Shown here in pieces: positions 30,791 through 57,884 of a stretch of DNA of 64,000 bases. Source of the stretch: Arthrobacter rhizophilus (GTDB lineage: Bacteria; Actinomycetota; Actinomycetes; Actinomycetales; Micrococcaceae). A program made the position numbers and the translations under genes. The stretch covers positions 116,505-180,504 of the forward strand of contig NZ_JAPFFT010000007.1 of the NCBI RefSeq assembly GCF_026241105.1. Reading direction: 5' to 3'. The first letter of the stretch is position 1, and each line of letters starts with the position of its first letter. The notes under the pieces were generated by a model, which made no database searches, was not told the origin of the DNA, and worked only from the letters and a program-made list of their open reading frames with translations.

Positions 30791-30927
30791 CCGGCCCGTA
30801 GTAGCCGGCCATTGAGACGGCGGTCCGGCCGCAAGTCACCGCAATGAATAGGCGTCCGCCGATCGTCCTCCACCCGCATAGCGCGGACGACGACGGCGGG
30901 CGGCGGTGAGGTGCGGCCGCTCCGCTA

Positions 30928-30965
30928 AGGACCGGGGTGGGAAATGAGAGGCCCGCCCCGGTCCT
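30928..30965 (+). terminator. Terminator hairpin after the purine permease
   Basis: AGGACCGGGGTGGG pairs with CCCGCCCCGGTCCT (14-bp arms, one G-U) around a 10-base loop, ~135 bases past the permease stop. No long T-run. It is the only structure noted in the 305-bp gap 30791-31095, whose right end carries the xdhC ribosome site. Confidence 0.65.
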
Positions 30966-31095
30966 CTTCACGCAAAGGGTTGCTTGTTTACCCGAAGCTC
31001 TCCTGTACAGACGCAAGGAATGAGAATATGAGGCAAGATCGCACGCTGCCCCGGGCGGGTCTCCGGTCCGGGACCTCGGTAAAGGAAGTGTTGCC

Positions 31096-32334
31096 ATGCT
31101 GGATTTGATGCCTTCGCTGGGCACCTGGCGGCCCGCGGTCTCTGGCGAGCGATGCGCAGTCGCCACCATCGTGGCCGCTGGAGGCTCCGTGCCCCGGCCC
31201 CTCGGCACGTCCATGCTGGTCTCCGAACACGGCGATGTTCTCGGCAGCCTCTCCGGAGGGTGCGTGGAAGGTGCCGTGGTGGAGGCCGCGCTTGAGGCAA
31301 TGCGCGACGGCGGCAGCCGCCTTGAGTCGTTCGGCTACAGCGCCGAGGACGCGTTCGCCGTCGGGCTCACCTGTGGCGGCGAACTGGAAGTCCACATCCA
31401 GCCGACCGGGGTCGCAGGGCTGGACTTGGCCGCGTTGAACGCGGTCAGCGGAGGGATGAACACCGCGAGCGGCTGGCCGTCCTCCATGGCACTCATCCGC
31501 AGGCTCGACGCTGCGGGAGGCGCCGTCGTCGTTCCTGATCCGGCCGTTTTTTCCGCCGCGGGTTCGCAGGAACTCTCGGACCTCCTGGGCGGGGATGCCG
31601 GCGTGATTCGCGCGGCCGCGGCCCAGCTCGAGCCCCTCTTACGTGGTGGCCGCGCAGGGCTGGTCCGGCTGGCGCCGGCTGAAGGCTGCGGGACCGTACC
31701 GGAACCCGAACCCATTACCCTCTTCGTCGAAAGCCGCTTGCCCGCGGCCCGCATGCTCATCTTTGGCGCCAACGACTTCGGCGCCGCGCTGCTCCCTGCC
31801 GGGAAACTCCTCGGCTACGACGTCACCGTGTGCGATGCCCGTCCCGCGTTTTCGAGCCAAGGCCGTTTCCTCGCCGCAGACCACCTCGTCACGGATTGGC
31901 CGCATCGCTACCTTGCCGCCGAGTCAGCCGCCGGCCGGATCGATTCCCGCACCGTGGTGTGCGTGCTGACCCACGATCCCAAGTTCGATATTCCCCTGCT
32001 GGAAACCGCCCTTGCTTTGGATCTTGCCTACGTAGGGGCCATGGGTTCGAGGCGCAGCCACCGGCAGCGGATCGACGGACTGCTGGCCAACGGCACCCAG
32101 GCCGAGGCGCTCGAACGGCTTCATTCGCCCATTGGGCTGGACCTTGGTGCGGTCACCCCGGCTGAAGTTGCGGTGTCCATTACGGCCGAGATCCTCACGT
32201 CCCGCGCGCCCCAAGCCACGTCCGGCCGGGGTTCGCTCAAAGACGGCACAGGACCGATTCATCACAGCACCCCCGAAACCCGCACCCCCGATCACAGCAC
32301 TCCAGAACACAGCAAGGTGACCCAGTGGACATGA
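31096..32334 (+). CDS. xdhC: XdhC-family molybdenum-cofactor insertion/sulfuration protein
   Basis: 412 residues with AAGGAAG before the ATG. The N-terminal XdhC domain has SVPRPLGTSM, GSLSGGCVEGAVV and the conserved LTCGGELEV. The C-terminal Rossmann part has LIFGANDFGAALLPAGKLLGYDVTVCD (usually GAGH in place of GAND) and YVGAMGSRRSHRQR. XdhC binds Moco and delivers it, sulfurated, to xanthine dehydrogenase. A His/Thr/Pro-rich tail ends in an ATGA overlap with the FAD subunit gene. Confidence 0.9.
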   Translation: MLDLMPSLGTWRPAVSGERCAVATIVAAGGSVPRPLGTSMLVSEHGDVLGSLSGGCVEGAVVEAALEAMRDGGSRLESFGYSAEDAFAVGLTCGGELEVHIQPTGVAGLDLAALNAVSGGMNTASGWPSSMALIRRLDAAGGAVVVPDPAVFSAAGSQELSDLLGGDAGVIRAAAAQLEPLLRGGRAGLVRLAPAEGCGTVPEPEPITLFVESRLPAARMLIFGANDFGAALLPAGKLLGYDVTVCDARPAFSSQGRFLAADHLVTDWPHRYLAAESAAGRIDSRTVVCVLTHDPKFDIPLLETALALDLAYVGAMGSRRSHRQRIDGLLANGTQAEALERLHSPIGLDLGAVTPAEVAVSITAEILTSRAPQATSGRGSLKDGTGPIHHSTPETRTPDHSTPEHSKVTQWT

Positions 32335-33284
32335 ACACCATCGAGTCCGTGGTTGCCACCACGGATCCAGGCCAATGGCGCGACGGCGACGCCTGGCTTG
32401 CCGGCGGCACTGTCCTGTTCTCCTACGGCAGTCCGGTCGGCAGCGAAGAACCGCTCAAGCGCTTGCTCGACCTGGGCCAAGCAGGCTGGCAGTCCGTGAC
32501 CGTGAGCGACTCCGGCGTAGAGCTTGCCGCCACCTGCACTGTTGCCGAGCTGTACGCGCTCCCGGTTTCGGACGCCGTGGCCGGCCGGAACTGGCCCGGC
32601 CTTGATGTTTTCCGCCCATGCTGCGATTCTTTCGTGGCCTCCTTCAAGGTGTGGAACATGTCCACCGTGGGCGGCAACGTTTGCACCTCGCTCCCTGCCG
32701 GGCCCATGATTTCGCTGTGCGCCGGCCTCGACGCCACGGCCACCATCCTTGGCCGGCACGGCAGCAGCCGTACTGTCCCAGTGGCGGAGTTCGTCACCGG
32801 GGACGGGAAGAACTCCTTGGCACCCGGCGAGCTCCTCCGCAGTATCCAGCTGCCGGCGTCGGCTCTGTCCGCGCGGGTGGCCTTCCGTCGGCTCTCGCTG
32901 AGCAACCTCGGGCGATCGGGGGTACTGCTGATCGGACGGCTCGACGCCGATGGCAGCCTGGTCCTCACCGTCACCGCCGCTACCAAACGGCCCGTGCAGC
33001 TGCGGTTCGCCGCCGCCCAGGTGCTCGACGCAGGCCAGCTAGCCGCCGCCGTCGAGCGTTCCATCCCTCCGGAGCTGTACCACGACGACATCCATGGGCT
33101 CCCGGAATGGCGTCGCGACATGACGGTTCGCCTTGCCGAGGAGATCCGCATGGAACTGCTCGACCCGGCTGGACACGGAGGGCCGTTTACGGTCTCGGGC
33201 GATTTCTGGCCACCGCATGCCACCTCACAACAACCGTCCACCCAGCCCGCGTTTAGGGACACAGCAAAGCAGAAGGAGGCCTGA
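32331..33284 (+). CDS. Xanthine dehydrogenase FAD-binding subunit
   Basis: 317 residues from ATG 32331, which forms a 4-bp ATGA overlap with xdhC; a GTG two codons earlier is possible. FAD_binding_5 features: AGGTVLFSY near the start and WNMSTVGGNVCTSLPAGPMISLCAGLDA, then the CO-dehydrogenase flavoprotein C-terminal domain (FRRLSLSNLG). It passes electrons from the iron-sulfur clusters to NAD. The Mo subunit gene follows after two bases. Confidence 0.9.
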   Translation: MNTIESVVATTDPGQWRDGDAWLAGGTVLFSYGSPVGSEEPLKRLLDLGQAGWQSVTVSDSGVELAATCTVAELYALPVSDAVAGRNWPGLDVFRPCCDSFVASFKVWNMSTVGGNVCTSLPAGPMISLCAGLDATATILGRHGSSRTVPVAEFVTGDGKNSLAPGELLRSIQLPASALSARVAFRRLSLSNLGRSGVLLIGRLDADGSLVLTVTAATKRPVQLRFAAAQVLDAGQLAAAVERSIPPELYHDDIHGLPEWRRDMTVRLAEEIRMELLDPAGHGGPFTVSGDFWPPHATSQQPSTQPAFRDTAKQKEA

Positions 33285-33286
33285 GC

Positions 33287-36124
33287 ATGGCAATCGAGAT
33301 CAACGGAACCGCCACCGAGGCCGCACCCCGCCCGGGCCAGTGCCTGCGGACATTCCTGCGCGAACAGGGCAATTTCGGCGTCAAGAAGGGGTGCGACGGC
33401 GGCGACTGCGGCGCCTGCACCGTCCACGTGGATGGTACGCCCGTGCACAGTTGCATCTACCCGGCCGTCCGCGCCGAGGGGCACTCGGTCACCACCATCG
33501 AGGGGCTGTCCAGCGGGGGAGAGCTCCATCCTGTGCAGCAGCAGTTTGTGGAAAACCAGGGCTTCCAATGCGGCTTCTGCACGGCGGGCATGATGATGAC
33601 CGCCGCTACCTTCGACGACGAACAGAAGGCCAACCTCCCGCGCAGCCTCAAGGGAAACCTTTGCCGCTGCACTGGTTACCGCTCTATCGCGGACGCTGTG
33701 TGCGGCAGTCACACCCACGCGCCCGACGCCGGCGCGGCGGCTCAGTCCGGCGCGGCAGTAAGTTCCGGCCCGGAAGTAAAAAACACCGGCCAGCTCGGTG
33801 ACGACGTTCCCGCCCCGGCGGGTCGCGCCGTCGTCACTGGCACTGCCCGCTACACGCTCGACGTCCCCGCGGAACAACTCCCCGGGCTGCTGCACCTCAA
33901 ACTGCTGCGCTCGCCGCACGCGCACGCCCGAATTGTCTCGATCGACACGACGGCGGCCCTCCGGGTACCTGGAGTCGTTGCCGTGTTCACGCACGAGGAC
34001 GCGCCGGCCCGGTTGTTCTCCACCGCCCAGCACGAGCTCTACACCGATGATCCCGACGACACCCGGGTGCTCGACAGCGTGATGCGATTCATCGGCCAGC
34101 GGGTTGCCGCCGTCGTCGCCGAATCGGTGGGCGCAGCGGAAGCCGGAGCGCGGGCCATCAAGGTGGAGTATCAACTCCTCGACGCTGTCTTCTCGCCACG
34201 GGAGGCGTTGCGGCCCGGCGCCCCCGCCATCCACGGGGAGAAGAATGCACAAACGGCCCGGATTTCCCGCCCGCAGAACAACGTCGTGGCAGAGGTCCAT
34301 TCCGAGCTGGGGAACGTGGAAGCCGGATTTGCAGCGGCCTCTTTCATCCACGAGAACACATACCAAACCCAACGGGTGCAGCATGTCGCGATGGAAACCC
34401 ATTGCTCCATCGCGTGGCTGGAACCCTCCGGGAAGCCCGGGGAGGAGCGCTTGGTGGTCCGTTCCTCAAGCCAGGTGCCGTTCCTTGCCCGGCGCACCCT
34501 GGCCCGCGTGTTCGATCTCCCCGAAGACCGCATCCGCGTGGTGGCCGGACGCGTGGGCGGTGGGTTCGGCGGCAAGCAGGAAGTGCTCACTGAAGACCTC
34601 GTGGCCATGGCAGCCCTCAAGCTGCGCCGGCCCGTGCAGGTGGAGTTCACCCGCAACGAGCAGTTCACCGCCACCACCACACGCCACCCCTTCACCATTA
34701 AGGTCAAGGCCGGGACTACCCGGGACGGGCACCTGACGGCGCTGCAGCTGGACGTGGTCACCAACACGGGCGCCTACGGAAACCACGCGCCCGGAGTGAT
34801 GTTCCACGGTTGCGGCGAATCCTTGGCCGTCTACAAATGCGCCAACAAGAAGGTGGATGCCCAGGCTGTTTACACCAACACCGTCCCGGCCGGCGCCTTC
34901 CGCGGCTACGGGCTGAGCCAGATGATCTTCGCGATCGAATCCGCCGTGGACGAGCTCGCCGTCGGAATCGGCATGGACCCCCTGGAGTTCCGGCTCAAGA
35001 ACATGGTCCGGCCGGGTGATGACATGCTTTCGACGAATCCGGAACCGGAGGAGGACGTCTTCTACGGCAGTTACGGCCTGGACCAGTGCGTGGCTTTGGT
35101 CCGGGACGCCCTTGAGCGCGGCGCGCAACGCTACCGGGACGCAGGCCTCGACCACCTTGGCCCGGAGTGGGCCACCGGCGTCGGTTCAGCGCTGTCCATG
35201 ATCGACACCGTTCCGCCTCGCGGTCACTTCGCCCACACGCGCCTGAGGCTTTTGCCGGACGGTACGTTCGACGCCGCCGTCGGGACCGCCGAATTCGGCA
35301 ACGGCACCACCACGGTCCACGCCCAACTGGCTGCGACCGCCCTGTCCACCACGGCGTCGAAGGTGGCCGTGCGTCAGTCCGACACGGACCTCGTGGAGCA
35401 CGATACCGGCGCTTTCGGCTCCGCGGGCACGGTGGTGGCCGGGCAGGCCACCTTGCTCGCGGCGCAAGAGCTGGCGCTCCGGATCCGGTCTGTAGCGGCC
35501 GCGTTCGCCGTTGTTCCGGCGGCGGATTGCGTGCTCGAGGACGGTGCGGTGCGCTGCGGCCCGCGGGTCCTGGCGCTCGCAGAGGTGTACGACGCCGCGC
35601 AGCAGCAGGGCGTGGAACTCGCCGCAGAGGGCCGTTGGGGTGGAACACCGCGTTCGGTCGCCTTCAACGTCCACGGATTCCGAGTCGCCGTGAACACCGG
35701 AACGGGGGAGCTGCGGATCCTGCAGAGCGTGCAGGCCGCCGATGCCGGCGTCGTGGTCAATCCGCGGCAGTGCCGCGGCCAGGTGGAAGGCGGAATCGCG
35801 CAGGCGCTCGGTGTGGCGCTGTATGAGGAAGTACGCGTGAACGACGCCGGACGGGTCACCACGGACATCCTGCGGCAGTACCACATCCCGTCTTTCGCAG
35901 ACGTGCCGCGCAGCGAGGTCTACTTCGCGAAAACGAACGATCAAATGGGGCCCCTCGGTGCGAAGTCCATGAGCGAGAGCCCGTTCAACCCCGTGGCGCC
36001 CGCGCTGGCCAACGCCATCCGGAACGCTACGGGAGCGAGGTTCGCGGAGCTCCCCATCGCTCGGGACAAGATCTACCTGGCGCTCAAGGATGCCGCCGCC
36101 CCCACCCAACTGGTTCGCATTTGA
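33287..36124 (+). CDS. Xanthine dehydrogenase, fused 2Fe-2S and molybdopterin subunit
   Basis: 945 residues. Residues ~1-150 carry both 2Fe-2S domains: the plant-type cluster GCDGGDCGACTVHVDG and the second site QCGFCTAGMM with CRCTGY. A short linker leads to the molybdopterin-binding domain with GRVGGGFGGKQE, AFRGYGLSQM and the end motif GAKSMSESPFNPVAPAL containing the active-site Glu. It hydroxylates hypoxanthine and xanthine to urate. Small and large subunits are fused while FAD is separate. Ribosome site GGAGG precedes the ATG. Confidence 0.93.
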   Translation: MAIEINGTATEAAPRPGQCLRTFLREQGNFGVKKGCDGGDCGACTVHVDGTPVHSCIYPAVRAEGHSVTTIEGLSSGGELHPVQQQFVENQGFQCGFCTAGMMMTAATFDDEQKANLPRSLKGNLCRCTGYRSIADAVCGSHTHAPDAGAAAQSGAAVSSGPEVKNTGQLGDDVPAPAGRAVVTGTARYTLDVPAEQLPGLLHLKLLRSPHAHARIVSIDTTAALRVPGVVAVFTHEDAPARLFSTAQHELYTDDPDDTRVLDSVMRFIGQRVAAVVAESVGAAEAGARAIKVEYQLLDAVFSPREALRPGAPAIHGEKNAQTARISRPQNNVVAEVHSELGNVEAGFAAASFIHENTYQTQRVQHVAMETHCSIAWLEPSGKPGEERLVVRSSSQVPFLARRTLARVFDLPEDRIRVVAGRVGGGFGGKQEVLTEDLVAMAALKLRRPVQVEFTRNEQFTATTTRHPFTIKVKAGTTRDGHLTALQLDVVTNTGAYGNHAPGVMFHGCGESLAVYKCANKKVDAQAVYTNTVPAGAFRGYGLSQMIFAIESAVDELAVGIGMDPLEFRLKNMVRPGDDMLSTNPEPEEDVFYGSYGLDQCVALVRDALERGAQRYRDAGLDHLGPEWATGVGSALSMIDTVPPRGHFAHTRLRLLPDGTFDAAVGTAEFGNGTTTVHAQLAATALSTTASKVAVRQSDTDLVEHDTGAFGSAGTVVAGQATLLAAQELALRIRSVAAAFAVVPAADCVLEDGAVRCGPRVLALAEVYDAAQQQGVELAAEGRWGGTPRSVAFNVHGFRVAVNTGTGELRILQSVQAADAGVVVNPRQCRGQVEGGIAQALGVALYEEVRVNDAGRVTTDILRQYHIPSFADVPRSEVYFAKTNDQMGPLGAKSMSESPFNPVAPALANAIRNATGARFAELPIARDKIYLALKDAAAPTQLVRI

Positions 36125-36125
36125 G

Positions 36126-36755
36126 CTAGTCGGTCAGGAGGTGGAGCTGTGCCTTGGTATCTACGTCTGTTCCATCGGCGAGGTCGCTGCAGTCCACAAC
36201 GTCCACCAGTCCCGGGTGGGCTTTGAGGAAACGGCGAGCTCCGGCGTCGCCCGCGGCGGACTCGGCTGCCTCGGCGCGGAGGGCGGCGTCGATGATCAGG
36301 GGATGGCCACGCCGCAGCTTTGCGGGTGCACTGCCGTCGAGGGCATCTTCCGCGTACCCCGCAGCCGTCACGCGGCCGGGTCGGTGCGCGGCCAGCAGCC
36401 TGGCGACGACCCCGGGAGTGAGGCCGGGCTGGTCAACCAAAGCCACGAGGACGTTGTGGCCTCGGGCAGCCGTTGCAATACCTGTCCGAAATGAACTAGC
36501 CATGCCGGACGCCCACTCCGGGTTGTCCACCACGAGGTATCCGTCTAGATCCGTGGTGCGGCGGACTTCCCCCGCTCCGGCACCGAGCACCACCACTACC
36601 TCGTGGCATCCGCCGTCGAGCAACACCTTGGCGAGTAACTCCACCAAGGTGCGGCCGCGGAAGGGGAGCAGTGCCTTGGGGCCGAGGCCCAGGCGCGTCC
36701 CTGCGCCGCCGGCCAACAGTACGCCGGTGGTGGGCGTGAGGCTGGTGTCGTTCAT
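36126..36755 (-). CDS. MobA/MocA-like nucleotidyltransferase
   Basis: 209 residues from ATG 36755 (GGTGA upstream). An NTP-transferase Rossmann protein: LLAGGAGTRLGLGPKALLPF is the nucleotide-binding signature, VDNPEWASGMASS and LVDQPGLT follow. In XDH operons such proteins (MocA/YgfJ type) attach CMP to molybdopterin to make MCD cofactor, or act as MobA-like GMP transferases. It is convergent with the Mo subunit gene with one base between stops, consistent with cofactor maturation for that enzyme. Confidence 0.85.
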   Translation of the reverse strand: MNDTSLTPTTGVLLAGGAGTRLGLGPKALLPFRGRTLVELLAKVLLDGGCHEVVVVLGAGAGEVRRTTDLDGYLVVDNPEWASGMASSFRTGIATAARGHNVLVALVDQPGLTPGVVARLLAAHRPGRVTAAGYAEDALDGSAPAKLRRGHPLIIDAALRAEAAESAAGDAGARRFLKAHPGLVDVVDCSDLADGTDVDTKAQLHLLTD

Positions 36756-36768
36756 GGGTTCACCATAT

Positions 36769-37051
36769 ACATGGTGCTGCCCGGGGTCTCGATACGGCCT
36801 GGCCTCGCCCGGCTGCTGCACGGCTTCGGTTTCCGGAGACCACATCGAAGTTCGATTTCCAGTGCGAGCCCACGGCGGTCTTGAGGTGCTTGAGCTGCGC
36901 CACTAGCTCCGACGGTTCCTGCGATGCCGCTCTTGAGGGCGATGCTTTGGATTCCATTCCTCCATTTGAGTTCGTTGAGGGGATTGGCGATGAAGGCGTA
37001 GACATCACTGATCGGACGTTTGATGATGACCGTGTTCTCGGCGTGAGCCAT
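36769..37051 (-). pseudogene. Truncated SRPBCC-family remnant
   Basis: A good AAAGGT ribosome site and ATG (37051) begin an intact SRPBCC/polyketide-cyclase N-terminus (NTVIIKRPISDVYAFIANP, about 46 residues). The frame then loses family character in 3'-terminal sequence that instead looks protein-like in another frame (ELVAQLKHLKTAV). This fits an internal deletion joining the two ends out of frame. A full SRPBCC protein is ~145 residues. The frame runs on to overlap the nucleotidyltransferase start at 36752. Function is presumably lost. Confidence 0.6.
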
Positions 37052-37839: not shown

Positions 37840-38090
37840 GTTTCCTCTTTAACAGTGAAGGCTCGCGCACGACGAGAGCGGTCGTCGGCACTCTTACCGG
37901 AATAGCCCGATCCTCGCTCTTCGTGCCTCCTGGACCCTGGGAGGGGCCTTCGCAACTCCAGGCTCCCCGTCTCGCGTCTTTTTTGGGGGCTTCGAAGTCG
38001 TTTTTTAAACATCGAATCGATGAATTAAAAGCCGCCCGAATTAGGCGACTGGCTGGCGTGAACTTACGCGCATCTTTGGAGGAGACAGTC

Positions 38091-39344
38091 ATGATCAAGA
38101 TTTCCAAACCGGCAACGAGGGCAGCGGTGTTTGCCGGCATCCCGTTACTATTGTTGACTGCGGCAGGGGCAGCGTTGGCCGATGGTTCGGCCAAGCCGGC
38201 CACGGCTACCGGGACACAGAACAGCGTCAGTGCTGCCAAAGCACCGCTCGCTCCCGTGATTTCCAGGTCTCCGGCAGTTTCGGAGACCGCTGGAAAGCCA
38301 GCGGTTCCGGCGCCGGCGGCGCCCGCCACGGCGGCCCAACCCACCACGGTCCCGCCACGAGCCGCAGCTTCGGGGTCACCGGCAGTTGGGGAGACTGCCG
38401 GAAAACCAGCCGTTCCAGTTCCTGGGGTCCCCGCGACGGCGGCACAGCGAAGCGCAGCTTCGTCCAGCTCCGTTTCACCGTCCACTGCACCGACGGATCC
38501 CACCACTCCGGGCTTTTCAACCTGTGATCCTGCGAAGCCCAACACCATGCCCAACTGTGCCTTGCTCACGGTCAACAAAGTGTGGATAGTCAATGGCCAG
38601 ACCATCAAAAATGGTGACGTCCTCGACGGCGTCACCTTCAATGCAGCCCTCAAACTGACGTTCAGCCACGACAACGGCCCCAACTCGGTGCCACAGGTAG
38701 CCGATCCTGCTGCGTGGGGGGAGGGCTACTACGTCCACCACGGCAGGCCCGTGAGCATCGAAGAGCAGATCAACCTACCCAACTGCACGGTGAACAGTTC
38801 CTTCACGGATGGGACCCGAAGCCTTCACCACGGACGTCTGCACGATCTGCAGTGGTTCGGCCCGTCCGAGCTTCACATTCAAGGCCCCTTGCAGTACACC
38901 GTCACGGTGACGAACACGGCCGAATGCACATTCCCGACACCGACACCGACGCCCACGAGCACTGCCACACCGACACCGACGCCGACACCCACGAGCACTG
39001 CCACACCGACACCGACACCGACGCCCACGAGCACTGCCACACCGACACCGACGCCGACACCCACGAGCACTGCCACACCGACACCGACACCGACGCCCAC
39101 GAGCACTGCCATTCCCACACCCACCGTGGTTCCGACACCGACCAGTTCACCGTCGGTAACCTTGCCAACCGAGACCGGAACAGCCGTGGTCGTGGCCGCT
39201 TCCGCAACCCCGGCATCAGGCACAACTGAGAACAGGCTGGCCTATACCGGGTCCGGTGGGGTCGGTTGGATTGCCGGCGCAGCCACGCTGCTCGCGGGAG
39301 CCGGGGCTGCGCTGCTCATTTCCCGACGCCGTAGGGCCCACTAA
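38091..39344 (+). CDS. Sortase-anchored surface protein with Thr-Pro repeats
   Basis: 417 residues; GGAGGAG ribosome site before ATG 38091. A signal peptide (basic start, LLLLTAAGAALAD) is followed by an Ala/Pro-rich stalk with two imperfect copies of SPAVxETAGKPAVPxP. A globular domain (~residues 140-285, with paired Cys in STCDPAKPN/PNCALL and LPNCTVN) precedes five Thr-Pro-Thr blocks. LAYTG at 383-387, a hydrophobic helix and SRRRRAH complete a class E (LAxTG) sorting signal. It is exported and covalently attached to peptidoglycan. The globular domain was not recognised. Confidence 0.88.
   Translation: MIKISKPATRAAVFAGIPLLLLTAAGAALADGSAKPATATGTQNSVSAAKAPLAPVISRSPAVSETAGKPAVPAPAAPATAAQPTTVPPRAAASGSPAVGETAGKPAVPVPGVPATAAQRSAASSSSVSPSTAPTDPTTPGFSTCDPAKPNTMPNCALLTVNKVWIVNGQTIKNGDVLDGVTFNAALKLTFSHDNGPNSVPQVADPAAWGEGYYVHHGRPVSIEEQINLPNCTVNSSFTDGTRSLHHGRLHDLQWFGPSELHIQGPLQYTVTVTNTAECTFPTPTPTPTSTATPTPTPTPTSTATPTPTPTPTSTATPTPTPTPTSTATPTPTPTPTSTAIPTPTVVPTPTSSPSVTLPTETGTAVVVAASATPASGTTENRLAYTGSGGVGWIAGAATLLAGAGAALLISRRRRAH
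38934..39110 (+). repeat. In-frame tandem repeats encoding TPTP...STA
   Basis: One shorter unit followed by four 36-bp units (38967-39002, 39003-39038, 39039-39074, 39075-39110). Units alternate between two synonymous spellings, so the true DNA period is 72 bp. Encodes the Thr-Pro stalk of the surface protein. Confidence 0.9.
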
Positions 39345-39381: not shown

Positions 39382-40137
39382 TTAGGGCGTGTCGAATAGT
39401 GTGGGCGCTTCGAAGAGCGCGCTCACGTCGCCGGTTGTTTCCCGGGGCAGCGTGCCTTTGCGGAAGGTGATGGCCGGGCCGAGGCCCGGGGTGACGGCGG
39501 TGCCGCCGACCATGGCTGTGAGGTTGGGTTCTCCTGCCGTGCCGGTGACCCGCAGGTGCGCTCCCTCTCTGAGGCCCAGGACAGGGACATCGTTTTCTTC
39601 GAGGAACTCGCTCAGCCTGGTTTCGCGTGTTTCCCCGGCATGGGTGCTGCCGGGGTCCGCGTCCAGATAGTGCGGGTTGATCTGGAACGGTACCAGGCCC
39701 AGGGTCGAGAAGCTCGGGGGTTCGACGATGGGCATGTCGTTGGTGGTGCGCAGCGTCGGGGAAGCGATGTTCGTTCCGGCGCTTGCTCCCATATACCTGG
39801 TCCCGGACTGAGCCGCCTCGCGCAGGGGATCCATGAGTCCCTGGCGGTGCAGCTGTGAGACGAGCCGGAAGGTGTTGCCGCCTCCCACAAAGACAGCATC
39901 GGCCTTGGCCAACGCATCCTGGGGCGAGCCAAATGTGTGCAGCCCGCGGGTAATGATGCTGTGGGCAGCCAGCGCTTTAGCTACTTTCGCGGTGTAGGCG
40001 TCGTGATCCTGCAGCGCGTAGGGCACGAAGATGACTTCGTTGACCGCGTCCAGGAATTGTGCGACCTCATCGCGGGCGTGGTCAAGGTAGCCGCTGTTGG
40101 CGTTGGTCGAGTTGGAAAACAGCAGAAGATCGAGCAT
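39382..40137 (-). CDS. pepE: Dipeptidase E (peptidase S51)
   Basis: 251 residues. The nucleophile Ser is in GASAGTN, after the VGGGNTFRL segment, with the His/Asp region INPHYLD, matching the Ser-His-Glu/Asp S51 peptidases that cleave N-terminal aspartyl dipeptides (cyanophycinase relatives). Length is close to the ~230 of E. coli PepE. It is four bases downstream of the iclR gene on the same strand and divergent from aroM-DUF1177-OPT, implying intracellular hydrolysis of imported peptides. Confidence 0.9.
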   Translation of the reverse strand: MLDLLLFSNSTNANSGYLDHARDEVAQFLDAVNEVIFVPYALQDHDAYTAKVAKALAAHSIITRGLHTFGSPQDALAKADAVFVGGGNTFRLVSQLHRQGLMDPLREAAQSGTRYMGASAGTNIASPTLRTTNDMPIVEPPSFSTLGLVPFQINPHYLDADPGSTHAGETRETRLSEFLEENDVPVLGLREGAHLRVTGTAGEPNLTAMVGGTAVTPGLGPAITFRKGTLPRETTGDVSALFEAPTLFDTP

Positions 40138-40141
40138 GTGT

Positions 40142-41008
40142 TCAGGCTTTCGTTCGTGGCCGGGTTTGGTTGGACAGGCTCTTGCCGTGGCGCCAGTTCC
40201 GTTGGGGTGCGGCTGTCTTGTTGGACAATAAATCGGAGAGTTCCTGGGCTGCTGCCAGAAGTTGGGCCAGGAAGTCCATCAGGTCTGTGCCGTCCTGTTG
40301 GACCTTGCTTTCGGAGATGGACAAGGAACCCACCGGGCGATGTCCCAGAAGCACCGGAACGGCCAGCGCCCTGGTGGAGGGGTCATATTCTCCTTCGGAG
40401 AAGGCGTAGCCGTCGGTGACTGTTTGATCAAACAGCGCCTCGAGGCGCTGCTCATCGACTTCGGTGTGTTCGGAGTACCTTGGATGCGGCCTGCCCTGGA
40501 GCAGGTTCCGGCGCTCGGCGGGACTGAGGAACGCGAAATATGACCTCGAGGTAGCCCCGGCATGGGCCGGGTACAGGTCTCCGATCAGGGGATGGGACCG
40601 GAGGGGTCCGTGGAGGCCGTCGATGGCCGCGATGCACCGGACGTAGGCCCCGTCGGGGATGGCGAACAACGTGGTCTTGGTGGTTTCCTGCGAAAGCCTG
40701 GTGAGGACGGTGTCGGCAAGCCGTGCCAGGCCCCCGGTGCGTTCCCACAGGGAAGCCATCCTCCACATGGCAGGTCCCAGACTGTAACGGCGGGTCCACG
40801 GGTCGGCCCGGAGAAACCCTTGGGCCGCGAGGGAGGCCAGGAGTCGCTGGGCGGAGGACTTGGTCAGTCCGAAGGTCTCGGCCAGTTCAAGAACTCCCCA
40901 GTCCGTGCGGAACTCGTTGAAGGACAGGAGGATCCCCAGGGCGCGGTCAACAGTCTGGAGCGGGGACTGCGCATCGGCGCCTGGAAGGGGCTGCGGGGAC
41001 AACGTCAT
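40142..41008 (-). CDS. IclR-family regulator of the pepE/aroM cassette
   Basis: 288 residues from ATG 41008. The winged helix is in GVLELAETFGLTKSSAQRLLASL; the effector domain has AHAGATSRSYFAFLSPAERR and GYAFSEGEYDPSTRALAVPVL. A short Lys/Arg-rich tail follows the usual IclR end. It is transcribed with pepE and divergently from aroM, so it probably controls both arms through the 195-bp gap between them. Confidence 0.88.
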   Translation of the reverse strand: MTLSPQPLPGADAQSPLQTVDRALGILLSFNEFRTDWGVLELAETFGLTKSSAQRLLASLAAQGFLRADPWTRRYSLGPAMWRMASLWERTGGLARLADTVLTRLSQETTKTTLFAIPDGAYVRCIAAIDGLHGPLRSHPLIGDLYPAHAGATSRSYFAFLSPAERRNLLQGRPHPRYSEHTEVDEQRLEALFDQTVTDGYAFSEGEYDPSTRALAVPVLLGHRPVGSLSISESKVQQDGTDLMDFLAQLLAAAQELSDLLSNKTAAPQRNWRHGKSLSNQTRPRTKA

Positions 41009-41081
41009 GGGAAAAGCATAGGGGCCACCGGAGTCGGAAACCGCAAATTCCCGAATTTCCGTCCCAAAAATAGATTCCACC

Positions 41082-41096
41082 TCCCAAATAGTGGGA
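41082..41096. promoter_or_regulatory. Candidate IclR operator TCCCA-N5-TGGGA
   Basis: Perfect 5-bp arms TCCCA (41082-41086) and TGGGA (41092-41096), extended by ATTCC and GGAAT on the outside. Located in the AT-rich gap between divergent iclR and aroM. Similar half-sites (TTCCCGAATTTCC) lie at 41048-41060. Confidence 0.45.
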
Positions 41097-41202
41097 ATTG
41101 ATTGTTTGTGGTGAGCATCCCGTGGGCTAATTGAGGCACTCCAAAATGTCGGGCAGATCACATCCGGCAGCAAGCTGCGGCGGGACGCCGGGAAGGATTC
41201 AG

Positions 41203-41919
41203 ATGAACGACATGCCACCACCTGCGGCCCTGGCCCGCACCGCACGGACCCTGGGCGTCATCACCATCGGGCAGACGCCGCGGACGGACCTCACCCCGGA
41301 GCTCGCGGACCTTCTTCCTGGTGTGCGCATCGCCGAACGAGGCGCCTTGGACGGGCTCTCGGCGTCGGAAATCGCCGAACTTGCTCCGGTACCCGGAGAC
41401 CATGTCATGACGACGCGTCTGCGGGACGGGACGGCCGCCGTCGTCGGCCAGGAAGCTCTGGTGAGACGGGTCCAGGCCGCCATCCTGGACCTGCAGGGCG
41501 AAACCGACGTGCTCCTGTTGGCCTGCACAGGGACATTCCCGGAGTTCATCCACATCAAACCACTGATTGAACCGGACCACGTACTGGCCCACGTGGTGGC
41601 CGCCGTCGCCTCGCGGAGCCCTCATGTCGGCATCATCTGTCCCCTGGCCGAACAGCAGGAGGACGCGAAGGCCAAATACCGGGCCCTCCTGCCCCGGACG
41701 GTGGCCCTCTCAACGGCGGCAGCCACCCCTTATTCCACGGACCTGGCATCCCTGGGCGCAGCCGCGGAACAACTCAGAGCCGACGGCGCGGAGATCATCG
41801 TTCTGGACTGCATCGGCTACACGGCGCGGATGCGCTCCGAGGTTATCGAAGCCAGCGGTTTGCCGGTCCTGCTGGCACGATCAGTCGCCGCGCGCATCGC
41901 CGCCGAGCTGCTCGGCTAA
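41203..41919 (+). CDS. aroM: AroM-family protein
   Basis: 238 residues from ATG 41203 (GGAAGG upstream). AroM signature LGVITIGQTPRTDLTPEL at the start, with LLLACTG and VLDCIGYT each carrying a Cys, and a Cys in VGIICPLAEQQ. The family is named from an E. coli gene downstream of aroL, but its function is unknown. The two-domain layout with paired Cys resembles Asp/Glu and hydantoin racemases, suggesting a racemase-like role. In this cassette it precedes DUF1177 and the transporter. Confidence 0.85.
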   Translation: MNDMPPPAALARTARTLGVITIGQTPRTDLTPELADLLPGVRIAERGALDGLSASEIAELAPVPGDHVMTTRLRDGTAAVVGQEALVRRVQAAILDLQGETDVLLLACTGTFPEFIHIKPLIEPDHVLAHVVAAVASRSPHVGIICPLAEQQEDAKAKYRALLPRTVALSTAAATPYSTDLASLGAAAEQLRADGAEIIVLDCIGYTARMRSEVIEASGLPVLLARSVAARIAAELLG

Positions 41920-41940
41920 CCCATCCCAAAGAACAAAAAA

Positions 41941-41963
41941 CGGCACCGGAGACCCCGGCGCCG
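41941..41963 (-). terminator. Hairpin in the aroM-DUF1177 gap
   Basis: CGGCACCGG and CCGGCGCCG pair (one mismatch) around AGACC. An A-run precedes it on the plus strand, so on the minus strand it reads as an intrinsic terminator. It may instead protect or attenuate the plus-strand mRNA. The 86-bp gap ends with AAGGAG before DUF1177. Confidence 0.45.
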
Positions 41964-42005
41964 CAATGAAACTTGCATTGACCCATAAAAAAGGAGCAAA
42001 AACTA

Positions 42006-42965
42006 ATGTCTTGGAAGCACGTGCTGGAATCCTTCGACCTGCTGGACAGCCCGGCAGTCAACGGTGAGGCGGTAAGGAATCTATGGCAGAACTACGGAGC
42101 CGATGATGTCTTCGTGGAAACCGTCGCCGGCCACGCCGGAGCCACGGACTTCGTCCGCGTTCTCATCCCGGGAACCAGAGGCAAGAGCGCTGGCGGCACG
42201 GCGCCGACCCTCGGCATCATCGGCCGGCTCGGGGGACTGGGAGCCAGGCCGGAAAAGATCGGTTTCGTCTCCGACGGCGACGGTGCCCTGACAGTCGTGG
42301 CCGCCGCGGCCAAACTCCTGGAAATGGCCTCCCGCGGAGACCAGCTCGAGGGCGACGTCATCGTCAGCACTCACATCGACCCCGACGCCCCGACGCAACC
42401 CCACGACCCCGTCCCGTTCATGGGTTCCTCGATCGACATGTCGATCAACAACAAGTACGAAGTCACCCCGGACATGGACGCAATCATCTCGGTGGACACC
42501 ACGAAGGGCAACCGCATCTGCAACCACCGCGGATTCGCCATCACCCCCACCATCAAAGAAGGGTGGATCCTGCGCGTGGCCGAGCCGCTGCTCGACATCG
42601 CCGAACAAACCTCCGGGATGGCGCCGGTGGTCCTGCCGATCACCATGCAGGACATCACCCCCTACGGCAACGACGTCTACCACATGAACTCCATTGTCCA
42701 GCCTTGCACCGCGACCACCGCTCCCGTCGTCGGGCTGGCCATCACCACCATCTCGGCCGTTCCCGGATCAGCCACCGGAGCGACCGACCTGGGCAGCGTC
42801 GAATCAGCCGTCAGGTTCGTCATCGAAACGGCCAAAGACTTCGGACGCGACAAGCTGGCGTTCTTCGACGACGAAGACTACGCACAGCTGACCACCCGCT
42901 ACGGGTCCATGTCCAGGCTCCAGCACCTCTATCAAACACTCGCCGCAGCCACAACCCCGGCCTGA
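42006..42965 (+). CDS. DUF1177 protein
   Basis: 319 residues with AAGGAG before the ATG. Conserved DUF1177 blocks are visible: FVSDGDGALT, STHIDPDAP, FMGSSIDM, ISVDTTKGNRI, TPTIKEGW, PITMQDITPYGND and STAT-like IVQPCTATTAPVVG. The arrangement SDGDGA...THIDPDAP with acidic/His residues recalls M20/M42 metallopeptidases, but this is an impression. Function unknown; its genomic linkage to an OPT transporter, aroM and pepE supports a role in peptide processing. Confidence 0.85.
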   Translation: MSWKHVLESFDLLDSPAVNGEAVRNLWQNYGADDVFVETVAGHAGATDFVRVLIPGTRGKSAGGTAPTLGIIGRLGGLGARPEKIGFVSDGDGALTVVAAAAKLLEMASRGDQLEGDVIVSTHIDPDAPTQPHDPVPFMGSSIDMSINNKYEVTPDMDAIISVDTTKGNRICNHRGFAITPTIKEGWILRVAEPLLDIAEQTSGMAPVVLPITMQDITPYGNDVYHMNSIVQPCTATTAPVVGLAITTISAVPGSATGATDLGSVESAVRFVIETAKDFGRDKLAFFDDEDYAQLTTRYGSMSRLQHLYQTLAAATTPA

Positions 42966-43016
42966 GCAGGAACCGCCCCACCCCCAACGATCCCTCCCAC
43001 AGAAATCAGTCCTCCC

Positions 43017-44660
43017 ATGGCACAACCTCTCAATGTCAAAGACGACACCACAGCACGCCACCCCAGAGCCTTTGAGCCCGTGACCCTGGTGGTCACCGTT
43101 CTCCTGAGCATCCTGGGCGCCGTTATCGGCCTGCACATGATCACCACCATCGGCATCTCCGCCAACACCTCCGTCATCGGCGCGCTCATCGCCATGATCA
43201 TCGGCCGGATCTCTTTTTTCGGACTGGCCAAGATGCGCGACATCAACCGGCAAAACCTCGCGCAAAGTGCCATTTCCGGTGCCACCTTCGCCGCCGCAAA
43301 TTCACTGCTCACACCCATCGCGGTCCCCTTCGCGTTCGGCCGTACCGACCTGGTCGGTCCCATGCTCGTTGGCGCGTCAATGGGCCTGCTGATTGACGCG
43401 TGGATCCTGTACAAGAGCTTCGGGTCCAGATTCCTCCCCGCCGACGCAGCCTGGCCTCCGGGAGTGGCCGCCGCCGAAACCATTCTCGCCGGCGACAAAG
43501 GAGGTAAACGGGCGCTCCTCATGGCCGCCGGAGGCGCCATCGGCGTCGGAGCATCCTTATTCGGACTGCCCATGTCCGCGGCCGGAGTCGCGCTGATCGG
43601 CAACGTCTGGGCACTGGGAATGTTCGCCGCCGGGCTCCTGGTGAGCCAATACGCTCCGGCGATCCTGCACTTCACCCTCTCTTCCATATATGTCCCGCAC
43701 GGAGTAATGATCGGCGCCGGAATCGTCGCCCTGGTCCAGGCAGTAAGGATCCTCCTGGACAAAAAATCCGCCAAAGACCGGCAGAAAGACCAGATCCTGG
43801 CCCAGGCCCGAGCGGAAGCACCGGAAGACCCCTCCCTTGTCACCACTGTCAGCGCTGGCAAGCTGCGCCGCACCTTCACCTCCGGCTACTTCCTCTACGT
43901 CGCCGGCGCCCTGATCCTAGCCACCCTCGGTGGCATCTGGACCCAGATGTCCGTCCCCGCAGTGATCGCCTGGATCCTCTTCGCCGCCGTCGCCGCGATC
44001 ATCCACGAACTCATCGTCGGCCTCGCCGCCATGCACGCCGGCTGGTTCCCCGCCTTCGCCGTGACACTGATCTTCCTCGTCGCCGGCCTGCTGCTCCAGA
44101 TCCCCGCCGTGCCCCTGGCCCTCCTGGTCGGATACTGCGCCGCCACCGGCCCGGCGTTCGCCGACATGGGCTACGACCTCAAAGCAGGCTGGATCCTCCG
44201 CCGAGAAAACCGGCCGTATACGGCCTTCGAAATCGAAGGTCGCCGGCAGCAACTGCTCTCCGCCATGATCGGCTTCACCGTCGCCATCGGCCTCGTCGCC
44301 TTGCTCTGGAACACCTACTTCACCGCCGGACACCTCCCGCCCGCCGCCATGGTCTACGCGGACACCATCAAAGCCGGCCTGACAAACCCTGACGTCATCC
44401 GCAACCTCATCCTCTGGGCCATCCCCGGAGCCATCATCCAGATCATCGGCGGCGCCAAACGCCAAATGGGCGTCTTGCTCGCAACAGGACTGCTCATCGG
44501 AACCCCCAACGCCGGCTGGCTCGTCCTCACAGCCCTGCTCTTCCGCTTCATCTGGACCAAATACCGGCCGCAAAACGGGGAAACCGAAGTCTCCCTCATC
44601 GGAGCGGGCCTGATCGCCGGCGACTCCGTCTATTCCGTGGGCCAGATCTTCAAAGGCTAA
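43017..44660 (+). CDS. OPT/YSL-family oligopeptide transporter
   Basis: 547 residues, ~14 hydrophobic helices. OPT features include AWPPGVAAAETI (the FPxGxAxAE-type block), GLLIDAWILYKSF and GYDLKAGWILRRENR. OPT proteins move oligopeptides or metal-nicotianamine-type chelates by proton symport. Last of the three plus-strand genes of the cassette, followed by a perfect hairpin terminator. Codon choice (Arg CGC/CGG, many CTC) matches the neighbours. Confidence 0.88.
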   Translation: MAQPLNVKDDTTARHPRAFEPVTLVVTVLLSILGAVIGLHMITTIGISANTSVIGALIAMIIGRISFFGLAKMRDINRQNLAQSAISGATFAAANSLLTPIAVPFAFGRTDLVGPMLVGASMGLLIDAWILYKSFGSRFLPADAAWPPGVAAAETILAGDKGGKRALLMAAGGAIGVGASLFGLPMSAAGVALIGNVWALGMFAAGLLVSQYAPAILHFTLSSIYVPHGVMIGAGIVALVQAVRILLDKKSAKDRQKDQILAQARAEAPEDPSLVTTVSAGKLRRTFTSGYFLYVAGALILATLGGIWTQMSVPAVIAWILFAAVAAIIHELIVGLAAMHAGWFPAFAVTLIFLVAGLLLQIPAVPLALLVGYCAATGPAFADMGYDLKAGWILRRENRPYTAFEIEGRRQQLLSAMIGFTVAIGLVALLWNTYFTAGHLPPAAMVYADTIKAGLTNPDVIRNLILWAIPGAIIQIIGGAKRQMGVLLATGLLIGTPNAGWLVLTALLFRFIWTKYRPQNGETEVSLIGAGLIAGDSVYSVGQIFKG

Positions 44661-49104: not shown

Positions 49105-49155
49105 CACATCTGACGACCGGCCATGCGACAAGGCATGCAACACCAGGAGGCTCAA

Positions 49156-50823
49156 GTGGCGCCAAAACCAGACCTAATCTTCACAGGCGGATGGATCTTC
49201 ACCGCCCGATCGAACGCACCGGCGCGACTGGCTGTGGCTGTGTCGGAAGGACGCATCACCGCGGTCGGACCCGACGTCGACGTCCTCACGACGGCAACGG
49301 ACGGGACTGAGATCGTGGACCTCGACGGCGGGCTCCTGATTCCCGGTTTCCAGGACGCTCACGTCCACCCGGTGTCCGGCGGCATGGAACTGCTGCAGTG
49401 CAACCTCACCGAAGCCCAGAGCGCGGCCGATTCCCTCGCCAGGATCGACGGGTACGCAGCAGAGAACCCGGAGGCCGAATGGATCCTCGGAGGCGGCTGG
49501 TCCATGGAGCATTTTCCGGGCGGCACCCCGACCCGGCAGGCACTCGATGCCATCGTGCCGGACCGTCCCGTGCTGCTCGCCAACCGTGACCACCACGGCG
49601 TCTGGGCCAACACCCGCGCATTCGAACTAGCCGGCATCAACGCGTTGACACAGGACCCGGTTGACGGCCGTCTTGAGCGGGAGCCTGACGGTTACCCCGC
49701 CGGCACAGTGCACGAGGGGGCAATGAACCTCTTCGACAAGGTTCGCCCGGCGGTGCACGGCGATCTCCTCTACGCGGGGCTGCTCCGCGCCCAGGAAGAA
49801 CTCTTCAGCCTTGGCATCACGGGCTGGCAGGACGCCGCCGTGGGAGCCTTGTTCGGCGCGCCGGACACGCTCGACACATACCGCAGGGCCATCGCGGAGG
49901 GAACACTCGAAGCACACGTCGTCGGGGCGCTGTGGTGGGAGCGTGAACCCGGTCTCGAGCAGATACCCCGTCTGATCGAACGCCGTTCCAGCGTTGCCGC
50001 CGAACTGCCGGGGGAACTCTTCTCGGCCGGAACGGTCAAGATCATGGTGGACGGGGTCGCGGAAAACTTCACGGCCGCCATGACCGCTCCTTATCTGGAC
50101 AATCACGGCCACAGCACGGACAACGCAGGGCTGTCCTTCATTGACCCGGAGCGGCTGAAGGAGTACGTGACAGCTCTCGATGCGGCCGGATTCCAAGTGC
50201 ACTTCCATGCGCTCGGCGACCGTGCCGTCCGCGAGGCGCTCGACGCCGTGGAGGCCGCCAGGCTGGCCAACGGCCCCAAGGGAAACCGGCATCAGATCGC
50301 CCATCTGCAGCTCGTCAGCGAGGTGGACGCCCCCCGGTTTGCTGAACTCGATGTCGTCGTCAACATGCAGGCGCTGTGGGCCTGCCACGAAACCCACCTG
50401 GACGAGCTCACCTTGCCGTTCCTGCCGGCCGGCGCGGAAGCGCGCCACTATCCCTTCGGTGAGCTGCTGGCCAGCGGAGCGCGCCTGGCGGCAGGCAGCG
50501 ACTGGCCGGTATCAAGCGCAAACCCTGTCTGGGCCATCCACGTCGCCGTCAATCGTGTGGCGCCGGGTTCTTCGGACGAGGTGCTCGGCGATGCGCTTCA
50601 ACGGCTTGACCTTGCAACCGCGCTGACCGCGTATACGGCCGGCACCGCCTACGCGAACCACCGTGACCACAACACGGGAGCTATAGCCCAAGGCTATTTC
50701 GCAGACCTCGCAGTGCTCCGCCCCAACCCGTTCGAGCTCGCCCCTACGGACATCCACACCGCCGCCGTCGTCTCGACCTGGGTGCGCGGCGAACAAGTCT
50801 ATGCCGCCCCCGGCACCCACTGA
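49156..50823 (+). CDS. YtcJ-like amidohydrolase
   Basis: 555 residues from GTG 49156 (CAGGAGG upstream). Amidohydrolase-3 family: metal site DAHVHPVSGG, ANRDHHGVWANT, HFHALGDRAV, HQIAHLQLV and GSDWPVSSANPVWA. Hydrolyses an amide or imide bond, substrate unknown (YtcJ-like enzymes include N-substituted formamide deformylases). First gene of an operon with an ABC importer, amine oxidase, cupin and aldehyde dehydrogenase. Confidence 0.88.
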   Translation: MAPKPDLIFTGGWIFTARSNAPARLAVAVSEGRITAVGPDVDVLTTATDGTEIVDLDGGLLIPGFQDAHVHPVSGGMELLQCNLTEAQSAADSLARIDGYAAENPEAEWILGGGWSMEHFPGGTPTRQALDAIVPDRPVLLANRDHHGVWANTRAFELAGINALTQDPVDGRLEREPDGYPAGTVHEGAMNLFDKVRPAVHGDLLYAGLLRAQEELFSLGITGWQDAAVGALFGAPDTLDTYRRAIAEGTLEAHVVGALWWEREPGLEQIPRLIERRSSVAAELPGELFSAGTVKIMVDGVAENFTAAMTAPYLDNHGHSTDNAGLSFIDPERLKEYVTALDAAGFQVHFHALGDRAVREALDAVEAARLANGPKGNRHQIAHLQLVSEVDAPRFAELDVVVNMQALWACHETHLDELTLPFLPAGAEARHYPFGELLASGARLAAGSDWPVSSANPVWAIHVAVNRVAPGSSDEVLGDALQRLDLATALTAYTAGTAYANHRDHNTGAIAQGYFADLAVLRPNPFELAPTDIHTAAVVSTWVRGEQVYAAPGTH

Positions 50824-50837
50824 CCCTCCCGGAGAAC

Positions 50838-52526
50838 ATGATGCTTACAACACCACAGATATTCCCGCACGCCCCCGGCACCCGCAGCACGCGGCGTCCC
50901 CCGCGCCGCCGCACTCTTACCATCACGGCTCTGCTCGCCGCCGGTTCACTGGCCCTCACCGCCTGCGCCCCGGCCGTGACCACTACCGGCAAAACCGCGG
51001 CATACGAACTGACCGGTACCACCCCTGCACCGTCAGGACAACTGGACTCCTTCACTTGGTCGATCTACGCGGAACCATCATCCCTCGACTACGCCCACGC
51101 CTACGATTTCCCGGACGACCAGGTCCTCAGCAACGTCTGCGAGTCCCTGCTGCGCACCAACCCCGACCTCAGCATCTCCCCGGGACTCGCAGCGAAGTGG
51201 GAGAACCCGACCCCGACAACCTGGGTTTACACCATCCGATCCGGAGTCACCTTCCACGACGGCACGCCTCTCACGGCGGCTGACGTCGTGGCATCGCTCA
51301 AACGCCACGTCGACCCCGCCGTCGGCTCACCGTGGGCCGTCGCCTTCGCCAACGTGTCCTCCATCGAACAGACGTCCGGCATGGAAGTCACCGTGACCAC
51401 AAGCACCCCGGATTCCCAGTTCAACCTCGCCATGGCGTCCATCCCCGGTGAAGTGGAGTCCGCCGCGACCCTCGCCAAGGACGGCGCCAACTACGGAAAC
51501 GCGGGCACAGGCGTGAACTGTACCGGCCCGTTCTCGCTCGAGAAGTGGGACTCAGGGTCGAGCATCACGCTCAAACGCTATGACGCCTACTGGGACAAGA
51601 CACTGCTGGCCAAGTCCAAACAGGTGAAATTTGTGTTCCTGTCCGATCCGAACACCCGCATCAATGCCTTTAAGTCAGGAGAAGTCGACGGCGGCTGGCT
51701 CATCCCGTCGAATGCCATCGACCAACTGAAGGCATCCCCCAACGGCAAACTCTATTTCGGTCTGAACACCACCGTCGCCGACGAAGTCGTCAGCAACATG
51801 AGCGGCCCTCTCGGGGATCAGCGTGTCCGCAAAGCCCTCATGATGGCGATCGACCGCCGCGGCCTGGTAGCGGCCGGAGAGCAAGGCTATGCGAAAGTGA
51901 CTGACGCCCTCACCACTCGTTCCGTCTGGAACGGAGCCCAGGGCGGGGTCGCGGACAACGCGTTCAACGGTCTGGAGAGTTACCCGGTCGATATCGCCGC
52001 CGCCAAAAAACTTGTCGCCGACGCCGGTGCGACCGACAAGGAAATCGTCATCGCCACCTCACCGATCTACGCCGGAGCCGACGTCGTCGCCCAGGCGGTT
52101 GCGGCCGCTGCGACCTCGATCGGCCTCAAACCGCGCATCGACACGATTCCGCCGGCCAAATACACCACCCTGTTCACCGACCCGGCCGCTCGCAAAGGCA
52201 TCGATCTGTTCTTCACAATGTGGAACAACTCCATAGCCGATCCCCTCGAAATGTACGCCGTCCTGCGCACCGGCGAGGCCAGCAACTACGGCGGATGGTC
52301 GAACCCGGACTTCGACGCGACCGTCAACAAGGCGATCGGAATCTCCGATCCCACCGACCGTGCCCGTGAATCGACAAAGGCCCAGCACATCGCCAATACG
52401 GAGTTGCCGTGGCTGCCGCTCTACGAGGTACCGACCACCGTGTGGCTCGGCTCCCGCATCACGGGAGTGTCGCCGTCGATCAGCTACCTGTACTCCCCTT
52501 GGGCTGCCGCCATCGGCGCCAATTAG
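50838..52526 (+). CDS. Peptide/nickel ABC transporter substrate-binding lipoprotein
   Basis: 562 residues of SBP family 5. A long basic N-region precedes a lipobox LTAC at ~residue 42. The domain shows GLAAKWENPTPTTWVYTIRSGVTFHDGTPLTAADV and the hinge LMMAIDRRGLV. Two adjacent ATG codons (50838, 50841) are possible starts; GGAGAA upstream fits the second. It captures the extracellular substrate for the permeases that follow. Confidence 0.93.
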   Translation: MMLTTPQIFPHAPGTRSTRRPPRRRTLTITALLAAGSLALTACAPAVTTTGKTAAYELTGTTPAPSGQLDSFTWSIYAEPSSLDYAHAYDFPDDQVLSNVCESLLRTNPDLSISPGLAAKWENPTPTTWVYTIRSGVTFHDGTPLTAADVVASLKRHVDPAVGSPWAVAFANVSSIEQTSGMEVTVTTSTPDSQFNLAMASIPGEVESAATLAKDGANYGNAGTGVNCTGPFSLEKWDSGSSITLKRYDAYWDKTLLAKSKQVKFVFLSDPNTRINAFKSGEVDGGWLIPSNAIDQLKASPNGKLYFGLNTTVADEVVSNMSGPLGDQRVRKALMMAIDRRGLVAAGEQGYAKVTDALTTRSVWNGAQGGVADNAFNGLESYPVDIAAAKKLVADAGATDKEIVIATSPIYAGADVVAQAVAAAATSIGLKPRIDTIPPAKYTTLFTDPAARKGIDLFFTMWNNSIADPLEMYAVLRTGEASNYGGWSNPDFDATVNKAIGISDPTDRARESTKAQHIANTELPWLPLYEVPTTVWLGSRITGVSPSISYLYSPWAAAIGAN

Positions 52527-52552
52527 CCGGACCGGACAGCGAAAGCCCTGAA

Positions 52553-56000: not shown

Positions 56001-56069
56001 TCAGCCCTCATCCCGCCTCCACCCGCACGCCGTGACCATCGGCGCCCAACAGACCCGGAGAGACCCGCC

Positions 56070-57874: not shown

Positions 57875-57884
57875 CCTAGGGAGA

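Follow-up and report, generated by a model that had tools for sequence, protein, structure and literature searches.

Architecture of the cassette

Within a 64,000-nucleotide stretch of the Arthrobacter rhizophilus genome (contig NZ_JAPFFT010000007.1, positions 116,505 to 180,504; hereafter the window), five genes at positions 39382-44660 form a compact cassette around two uncharacterised protein families, AroM and DUF1177. The minus-strand arm encodes a Peptidase_S51/PepE-family protein (39382-40137; 251 residues; PF03575, 201 bits) and an IclR-family regulator (40142-41008; 288 residues) whose HTH_IclR and IclR_C domains both score over cut-off (50.3 and 75.3 bits) and whose open frame continues upstream as far as 41245. 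The plus-strand arm encodes an AroM-family protein (41203-41919; 238 residues; PF07302, 248.5 bits against a gathering threshold of 23.8), a DUF1177 protein (42006-42965; 319 residues) and an OPT-family transporter (43017-44660; 547 residues). The transporter has many hydrophobic stretches and passes the Pfam threshold (PF03169, 73.7 bits against 25.8) as a weak match to an OPT subfamily. It is the sole OPT found in the genome, the two OPT matches being two stretches of one gene. All five proteins thus exceed curated Pfam cut-offs, while NCBIfam returned no match for the DUF1177 protein or the transporter.

The genes are separated by 4 bp (PepE-IclR), 86 bp (AroM-DUF1177) and 51 bp (DUF1177-OPT), which bears out the two tight divergent arms described in the first-pass annotation. 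The arms face away from a 194 bp promoter gap (41009-41202). That annotation had called the gap AT-rich; it is AT-richer than the window (54.1% against 64.0% guanine plus cytosine), though not strictly AT-rich.

Predicted properties of the enzymes

The three putative enzymes differ in how closely they resemble characterised proteins. PepE is the most familiar, scoring 280.1 bits against a cut-off of 156 for the NCBIfam PepE equivalog. Its residues S119, H156 and E191 are identical in 9 of 9 aligned cassette homologues and align by spacing and motif with Ser120-His157-Glu192, reported as the catalytic triad of Salmonella PepE (PMC9239234). By sequence, the Ser-His-Glu triad of this PepE-family protein is intact. 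It shares triad residues and equivalog score with the Salmonella enzyme, an aspartyl dipeptidase of S51 clade I, but unlike it sits in a dedicated cassette, and its Asp-X specificity is predicted.

The AroM model adopts the fold of Asp/Glu/hydantoin racemases, with a hydantoin racemase as its best match. Residues C108 and C203 are invariant in 61 of 61 AroM sequences and are predicted to form the catalytic pair. The earlier view of AroM as racemase-like with paired cysteines is therefore upheld by the predicted fold and by both residues. By sequence alone the protein gave a single weak match in the PDB (E 0.13).

DUF1177 is the least familiar of the three. Its model has an M20/M28/M42-type fold, with the transferrin receptor, which is not an enzyme, among the fold matches. 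Pfam found nothing in the protein other than DUF1177; a sequence search of the PDB gave no match with the protein alone and only E 1.3-1.9 with a profile. In all 83 bacterial and archaeal sequences compared, D90, D92, D164, D216, H226, N228 and Q232 are unchanged; H123 is kept in 78. The canonical di-metal ligands of M20/M28/M42 enzymes are His-Asp-Glu-Asp/Glu-His. Matching the model to them element by element along the secondary structure would retain D90 and D164, with R74 in the place of the first His and T122/H123 in that of the Glu pair; the loop at 254-258, which reads G-S/C-A/G-T-G, is without His. In the literature available, the term DUF1177 surfaced only as a single mention in a fungal DUF1996 study, and PF06675 did not surface.

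Recurrence of the cassette core

DUF1177 loci were collected in four sets, 52 in total (9 + 8 + 6 + 29). Nine are in reference genomes (set A); as six peptide words of the query served to find them, they are biased towards close relatives. Eight come from the window's phylum, in which 396 genomes were searched and nine, counting the window's own, carry DUF1177. Six represent seven plasmid records with a match, a second Planococcus glaciei record being omitted. The remaining 29 form a Bacillota-type set (set D). Locus L009 lies in genome G419, which has Bacillota in its record title; 33 of the 299 genomes searched in that phylum were positive for DUF1177, and the 29 loci come from these. G419 was already represented and so lies outside this set, which also omits G433, G565 and G635, where the DUF1177 matches are split. 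Loci L187-L189, added after the tally, and L190, which repeats the gene order of L002, are not among the 52. Neighbours within 8 kb of DUF1177 were tallied with profile hidden Markov models (HMMs) over all six-frame open reading frames (ORFs); because cassette members themselves supplied the models, more divergent neighbours may have escaped the count. A simple script called the genes in the survey.

The tally shows that the gene set groups above chance. AroM lies near DUF1177 at 33 of the 52 loci, an Asp/Glu racemase at 25, DUF917 and an M29-like peptidase at 24 each, and OPT at 20. Scarcer partners are IclR (12), hydantoinase/oxoprolinase (9), CN_hydrolase (9), PepE (8) and NCS1 permease (6). 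Nearly all AroM genes are on the DUF1177 strand (32 of 33) and within 1.1 kb of it (31 of 33). Of six core partners (AroM, OPT, Asp/Glu racemase, DUF917, M29-like peptidase and PepE), three or more occur at 23 of the 52 loci, and the same HMMs gave zero matches in 61 unrelated regions totalling 215 kb.

The association holds at the level of whole genomes. Of the 299 genomes searched in G419's phylum, AroM is strongly matched (E < 1e-50) in 28 and DUF1177 is present in 33. The two coincide in 24 genomes where 3.1 would be expected (hypergeometric 4e-24, a value that takes no account of the kinship among these genomes). When weak AroM matches are included, 25 of 32 AroM genomes carry DUF1177. 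The two genes lie within 2.2 kb of each other in 21 of the 24 co-carrying genomes and on separate contigs in the other three. The expected co-occurrence of DUF1177, aroM and OPT is thereby confirmed at loci for all three, and in whole genomes for the AroM-DUF1177 pair. The cassette core recurs, rearranged, in distant bacteria and one archaeon, an archaeal plasmid carrying DUF917-DUF1177-AroM-M29-like. In the window's family only 5 of 295 genomes have DUF1177, and the cassette is therefore sporadic. AroM is also present in the E. coli control genome, and a scan of viral contigs found no DUF1177 relative.

Exchangeable partners

Around the AroM/DUF1177 pair the importer is either OPT or an Opp-type ATP-binding cassette (ABC) system (L019, L031 and L032), suggesting that a single class of solute is taken up. 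Loci without AroM have NCS1 permeases (L021-L025, L030 and L187) or branched-chain-type ABC genes (L149). OPT, proposed as the importer in the first-pass annotation, is thus replaceable. The terminal peptidase is similarly variable: PepE or the M29-like protein are the candidates, and M20, S9 and S33-like peptidases are also present at DUF1177 loci, as are Opp ABC genes and, once, a C1-like peptidase. PepE and IclR, both named as members of the system in the first-pass annotation, are partners at some loci but not constant ones, PepE being outnumbered threefold by the M29-like peptidase. PepE tracks OPT, which is present at 8 of the 8 PepE loci among the 52. Two of the L187-L189 loci, from the window's family, carry PepE-DUF1177-OPT with a class-V aminotransferase, and the third combines PepE and IclR with an NCS1 permease.

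On Klebsiella and Sodalis plasmids, IclR-OPT-DUF1177-AroM-PepE-racemase occur in a single run. The complete run on the Klebsiella pneumoniae plasmid (L027, 6559-11966) has transposase genes on both sides, and the plasmid is typed as conjugative; a megablast of this cassette against E. coli genomes found no match. A separate observation concerns an unnamed protein of about 280 residues, encoded between DUF1177 and AroM at five loci and adjoining DUF1177 at a sixth (L124:6155-7000, L127:9804-10628, L132:1969-2829, L135:8422-9282, L137:8125-8961 and also L139:9820-10662). The L124 copy had no Pfam match and the L135 copy no NCBIfam match, and a four-copy profile gave weak matches in the PDB, the best to vinculin (E 0.015).

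The IclR protein and a candidate operator

The divergent gap holds the perfect palindrome TCCCAAATAGTGGGA (41082-41096), of the form TCCCA-N5-TGGGA, which is a candidate operator for the IclR protein. It is the sole site in the window at one mismatch or fewer; shuffled windows are expected to hold 2.67 such sites, so its mere presence is not above chance. Across the genome, exact sites number 12, against 1 for a reversed-pattern control. The stronger argument comes from its position and from other DUF1177 loci. L006 has TCCCACATAGTGGGA in the divergent gap between iclR and OPT, and its IclR is 60% identical to that of the window; TCCCATTTTATGAGA ends 6-7 bp ahead of the iclR start codon in L027 and L028. 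The form TCCCA-N5-TG(A/G)GA matches in 4 of 56 DUF1177 loci, three of them at iclR, and nowhere in 286 kb of control DNA, loci that had been retrieved with this pattern being excluded from the control.

L027 and L028 add little weight, because they are mutually alike and their IclR proteins are only 20-21% identical to the window's. L005, with an IclR 62% identical to the window's, does not have the motif. The palindrome noted earlier is thus present, in the divergent gap and recurrent, in the same or a near form, at iclR of three other DUF1177 loci; its mere occurrence in the window does not exceed chance. A chance occurrence is compatible with the counts alone; position and recurrence at iclR argue against it.

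Surrounding genes

Beside the cassette, an ORF at 37923-39344 closes with long TPTPTPTST repeats and then LAYTG, a hydrophobic tail and RRRR. Further upstream, at 29222-36845, are a purine-type permease, a molybdopterin (xanthine-dehydrogenase-like) protein and a MobA-like NTP transferase, the three genes covered by the scan of this region. On the other side, 49135-59378 holds a row of an Amidohydro_3 protein, dipeptide/oligopeptide ABC parts, a DAO-type oxidoreductase and an aldehyde dehydrogenase, which may be a second peptide or D-amino-acid pathway.

Proposed pathway and its alternatives

On balance, the five genes probably act jointly to import and dismantle a small peptide-like amide, most likely a cyclic or D-residue-containing one. 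In the pathway we infer, where substrate, reaction order, direction of flow and DUF1177 catalysis are read from gene content and predicted folds, OPT would bring the compound into the cell. AroM would then invert its acidic alpha-carbon, a chemistry modelled on the action of this fold on hydantoins, Asp/Glu and cyclic dipeptides. DUF1177 would cut an amide bond beyond the reach of ordinary peptidases, possibly opening a ring, and PepE would finish the linear dipeptide, a role that an M29-like or M20 peptidase would fill in other hosts. Bound at TCCCA-N5-TGGGA, the IclR protein would act as repressor of both arms; that it senses the substrate, as the first-pass annotation supposed, is conjecture.

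Two published systems resemble parts of this scheme. NozR, a relative of the Asp/Glu racemases, isomerises cyclic dipeptides (PMC10156859); it resembles AroM in its kinship with Asp/Glu racemases and in having two cysteines, but it is biosynthetic, and AroM is a separate Pfam family, PF07302. Non-CDPS cyclodipeptide-oxidase clusters are described as enriched in genes for hydantoin racemase, DUF917, AroM, predicted there to be racemase-like, and transporters, with OPT among the examples; many also contain peptidase genes (PMC11055893). AroM, racemase, DUF917, OPT and peptidase genes also occur at DUF1177 loci. The term DUF1177 does not occur in the available text of that report.

Several observations weigh against the proposed pathway. 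No cyclodipeptide oxidase (nitroreductase-type CDOA plus CDOB) is among the five genes in Pfam or NCBIfam searches at E 0.001, which sets the cassette apart from the non-CDPS clusters. OPT proteins elsewhere are reported to carry metals and folates besides peptides. AroM is absent within 8 kb at 19 of the 52 DUF1177 loci and from all three of L187-L189. Seven of the eight own-phylum loci (L020-L026) have a second arrangement, without AroM, in which DUF1177 is accompanied by DUF917, hydantoinase/oxoprolinase and the M29-like peptidase, with CN_hydrolase at six of the seven and an NCS1 permease at five; by gene content it resembles a hydantoin-type pathway. None of ten marker families lies near DUF1177 in 7 of the 29 Bacillota-type loci (L142, L145-L147, L149, L151 and L152), among them one near RapZ/CofD genes (L146) and the one beside branched-chain-type ABC genes (L149). 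These AroM-less and marker-free loci speak against a pathway of five fixed genes; they favour a DUF1177 whose partners vary, AroM being the most frequent. The window's phylum has strong AroM in four genomes (six including weak matches), DUF1177 in nine and both strong in two, one of which is the window's own; without it the overlap is one genome (p ~0.06), which leaves the other phylum as the source of the strong statistics. Finally, hhalign comparison of DUF1177 with small M42, M28 and M20 profiles gave probabilities below 1%, with no more than 5 sequences behind the M28 alignment and 4 behind the M20 one; in the mapping by secondary-structure order, the canonical di-zinc histidines seem to be lacking. 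The proposed likeness of DUF1177 to M20/M42 peptidases therefore survives in its predicted fold but not in profile similarity or significant PDB sequence matches, and apparently not in the histidine ligands, and its designation as a hydrolase follows from the fold rather than from an active-site match.

The nearest rival to a peptide-amide substrate is that the cassette degrades hydantoin/thiohydantoin-type compounds, that is, cyclic ureides or N-carbamoyl amino acids. AroM would racemise the hydantoin and DUF1177 would open the ring or hydrolyse the carbamoyl group, the peptidases being incidental. Hydantoin utilisation employs a racemase, a hydantoinase, a carbamoylase and an NCS1 permease; carbamoylases have an M20-type fold, and AroM finds its best fold match in hydantoin racemase. 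DUF917 (the S-methyl-thiohydantoin desulfurase family), hydantoinase/oxoprolinase, CN_hydrolase and NCS1 permease genes are neighbours at related loci in the numbers given above, and PucR-type purine-catabolism regulators make up 9 of 86 scanned neighbours, a selection made by the authors among the 156 genes without assignment that surround DUF1177 in the Bacillota-type loci. The window's five genes, however, include no DUF917, hydantoinase or NCS1 protein, PepE, OPT and Opp are peptide-type parts, and none of the three proteins compared with equivalogs of thiohydantoin and caprolactam enzymes (two DUF917, one hydantoinase-like) reached the cut-offs. Hydantoin-type chemistry is considered unlikely. 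It is improbable, too, that DUF1177 is a catalytically dead peptidase fold serving as a binding or sensor subunit while AroM and PepE do all the chemistry. Both canonical His ligands are apparently replaced, the 254-258 loop offers no substitute, active families show no profile similarity, and a non-enzyme is among the fold matches; yet the seven invariant residues and the nearly invariant H123 suggest a working site, and DUF1177 also occurs without AroM.

The remaining alternatives concern the role of the system as a whole. OPT might import a metal chelate, such as a siderophore- or nicotianamine-like amino-acid chelator, from which the enzymes strip the ligand; a plant OPT relative is reported to carry Fe, Zn, Cd and Cu, and a peptide-like chelator could need both racemase and peptidase. 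This is highly improbable: an Opp-type ABC system replaces OPT at some AroM/DUF1177 loci, and no siderophore or metal-regulator family is among the Pfam matches listed for the neighbours (25 of 103 families in one set), for which no dedicated search was made. Detoxification of a peptide antibiotic, for example an isoaspartyl-nucleotide, in place of feeding on peptides would fit the sporadic, in some hosts plasmid-borne, distribution, and some S51 peptidases (MccG, clade V) confer resistance to microcin C (PMC9239234). The window PepE, however, has a Ser-His-Glu triad where clade V has Asp, E. coli PepE failed to protect against microcin C (PMC9239234), and an importer within the cassette suits catabolism better than defence, all of which makes this role very doubtful indeed.

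Uptake and breakdown of a peptide-like amide, with its peptide-type transporter and peptidase, thus remains the favoured reading. A bolder extension of it is offered tentatively and is possible rather than probable: DUF1177 would be the founding member of a new amide hydrolase class, in which an M20/M28/M42-type fold has its metal site rebuilt around D90/D92, D164, H123, H133 and H226. AroM and DUF1177 would then work as a pair, racemisation preceding hydrolysis, to open cyclic or D-residue dipeptides, a dedicated recycling route common to bacteria and archaea. The analysis places two uncharacterised families, DUF1177 and AroM, in a single catabolic module for small molecules and proposes for each a chemistry that can be tested. 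An active DUF1177 would represent an enzyme class that combines a peptidase fold with a different active site, and would provide a route for cyclic or D-containing dipeptides that lie beyond ordinary peptidases.

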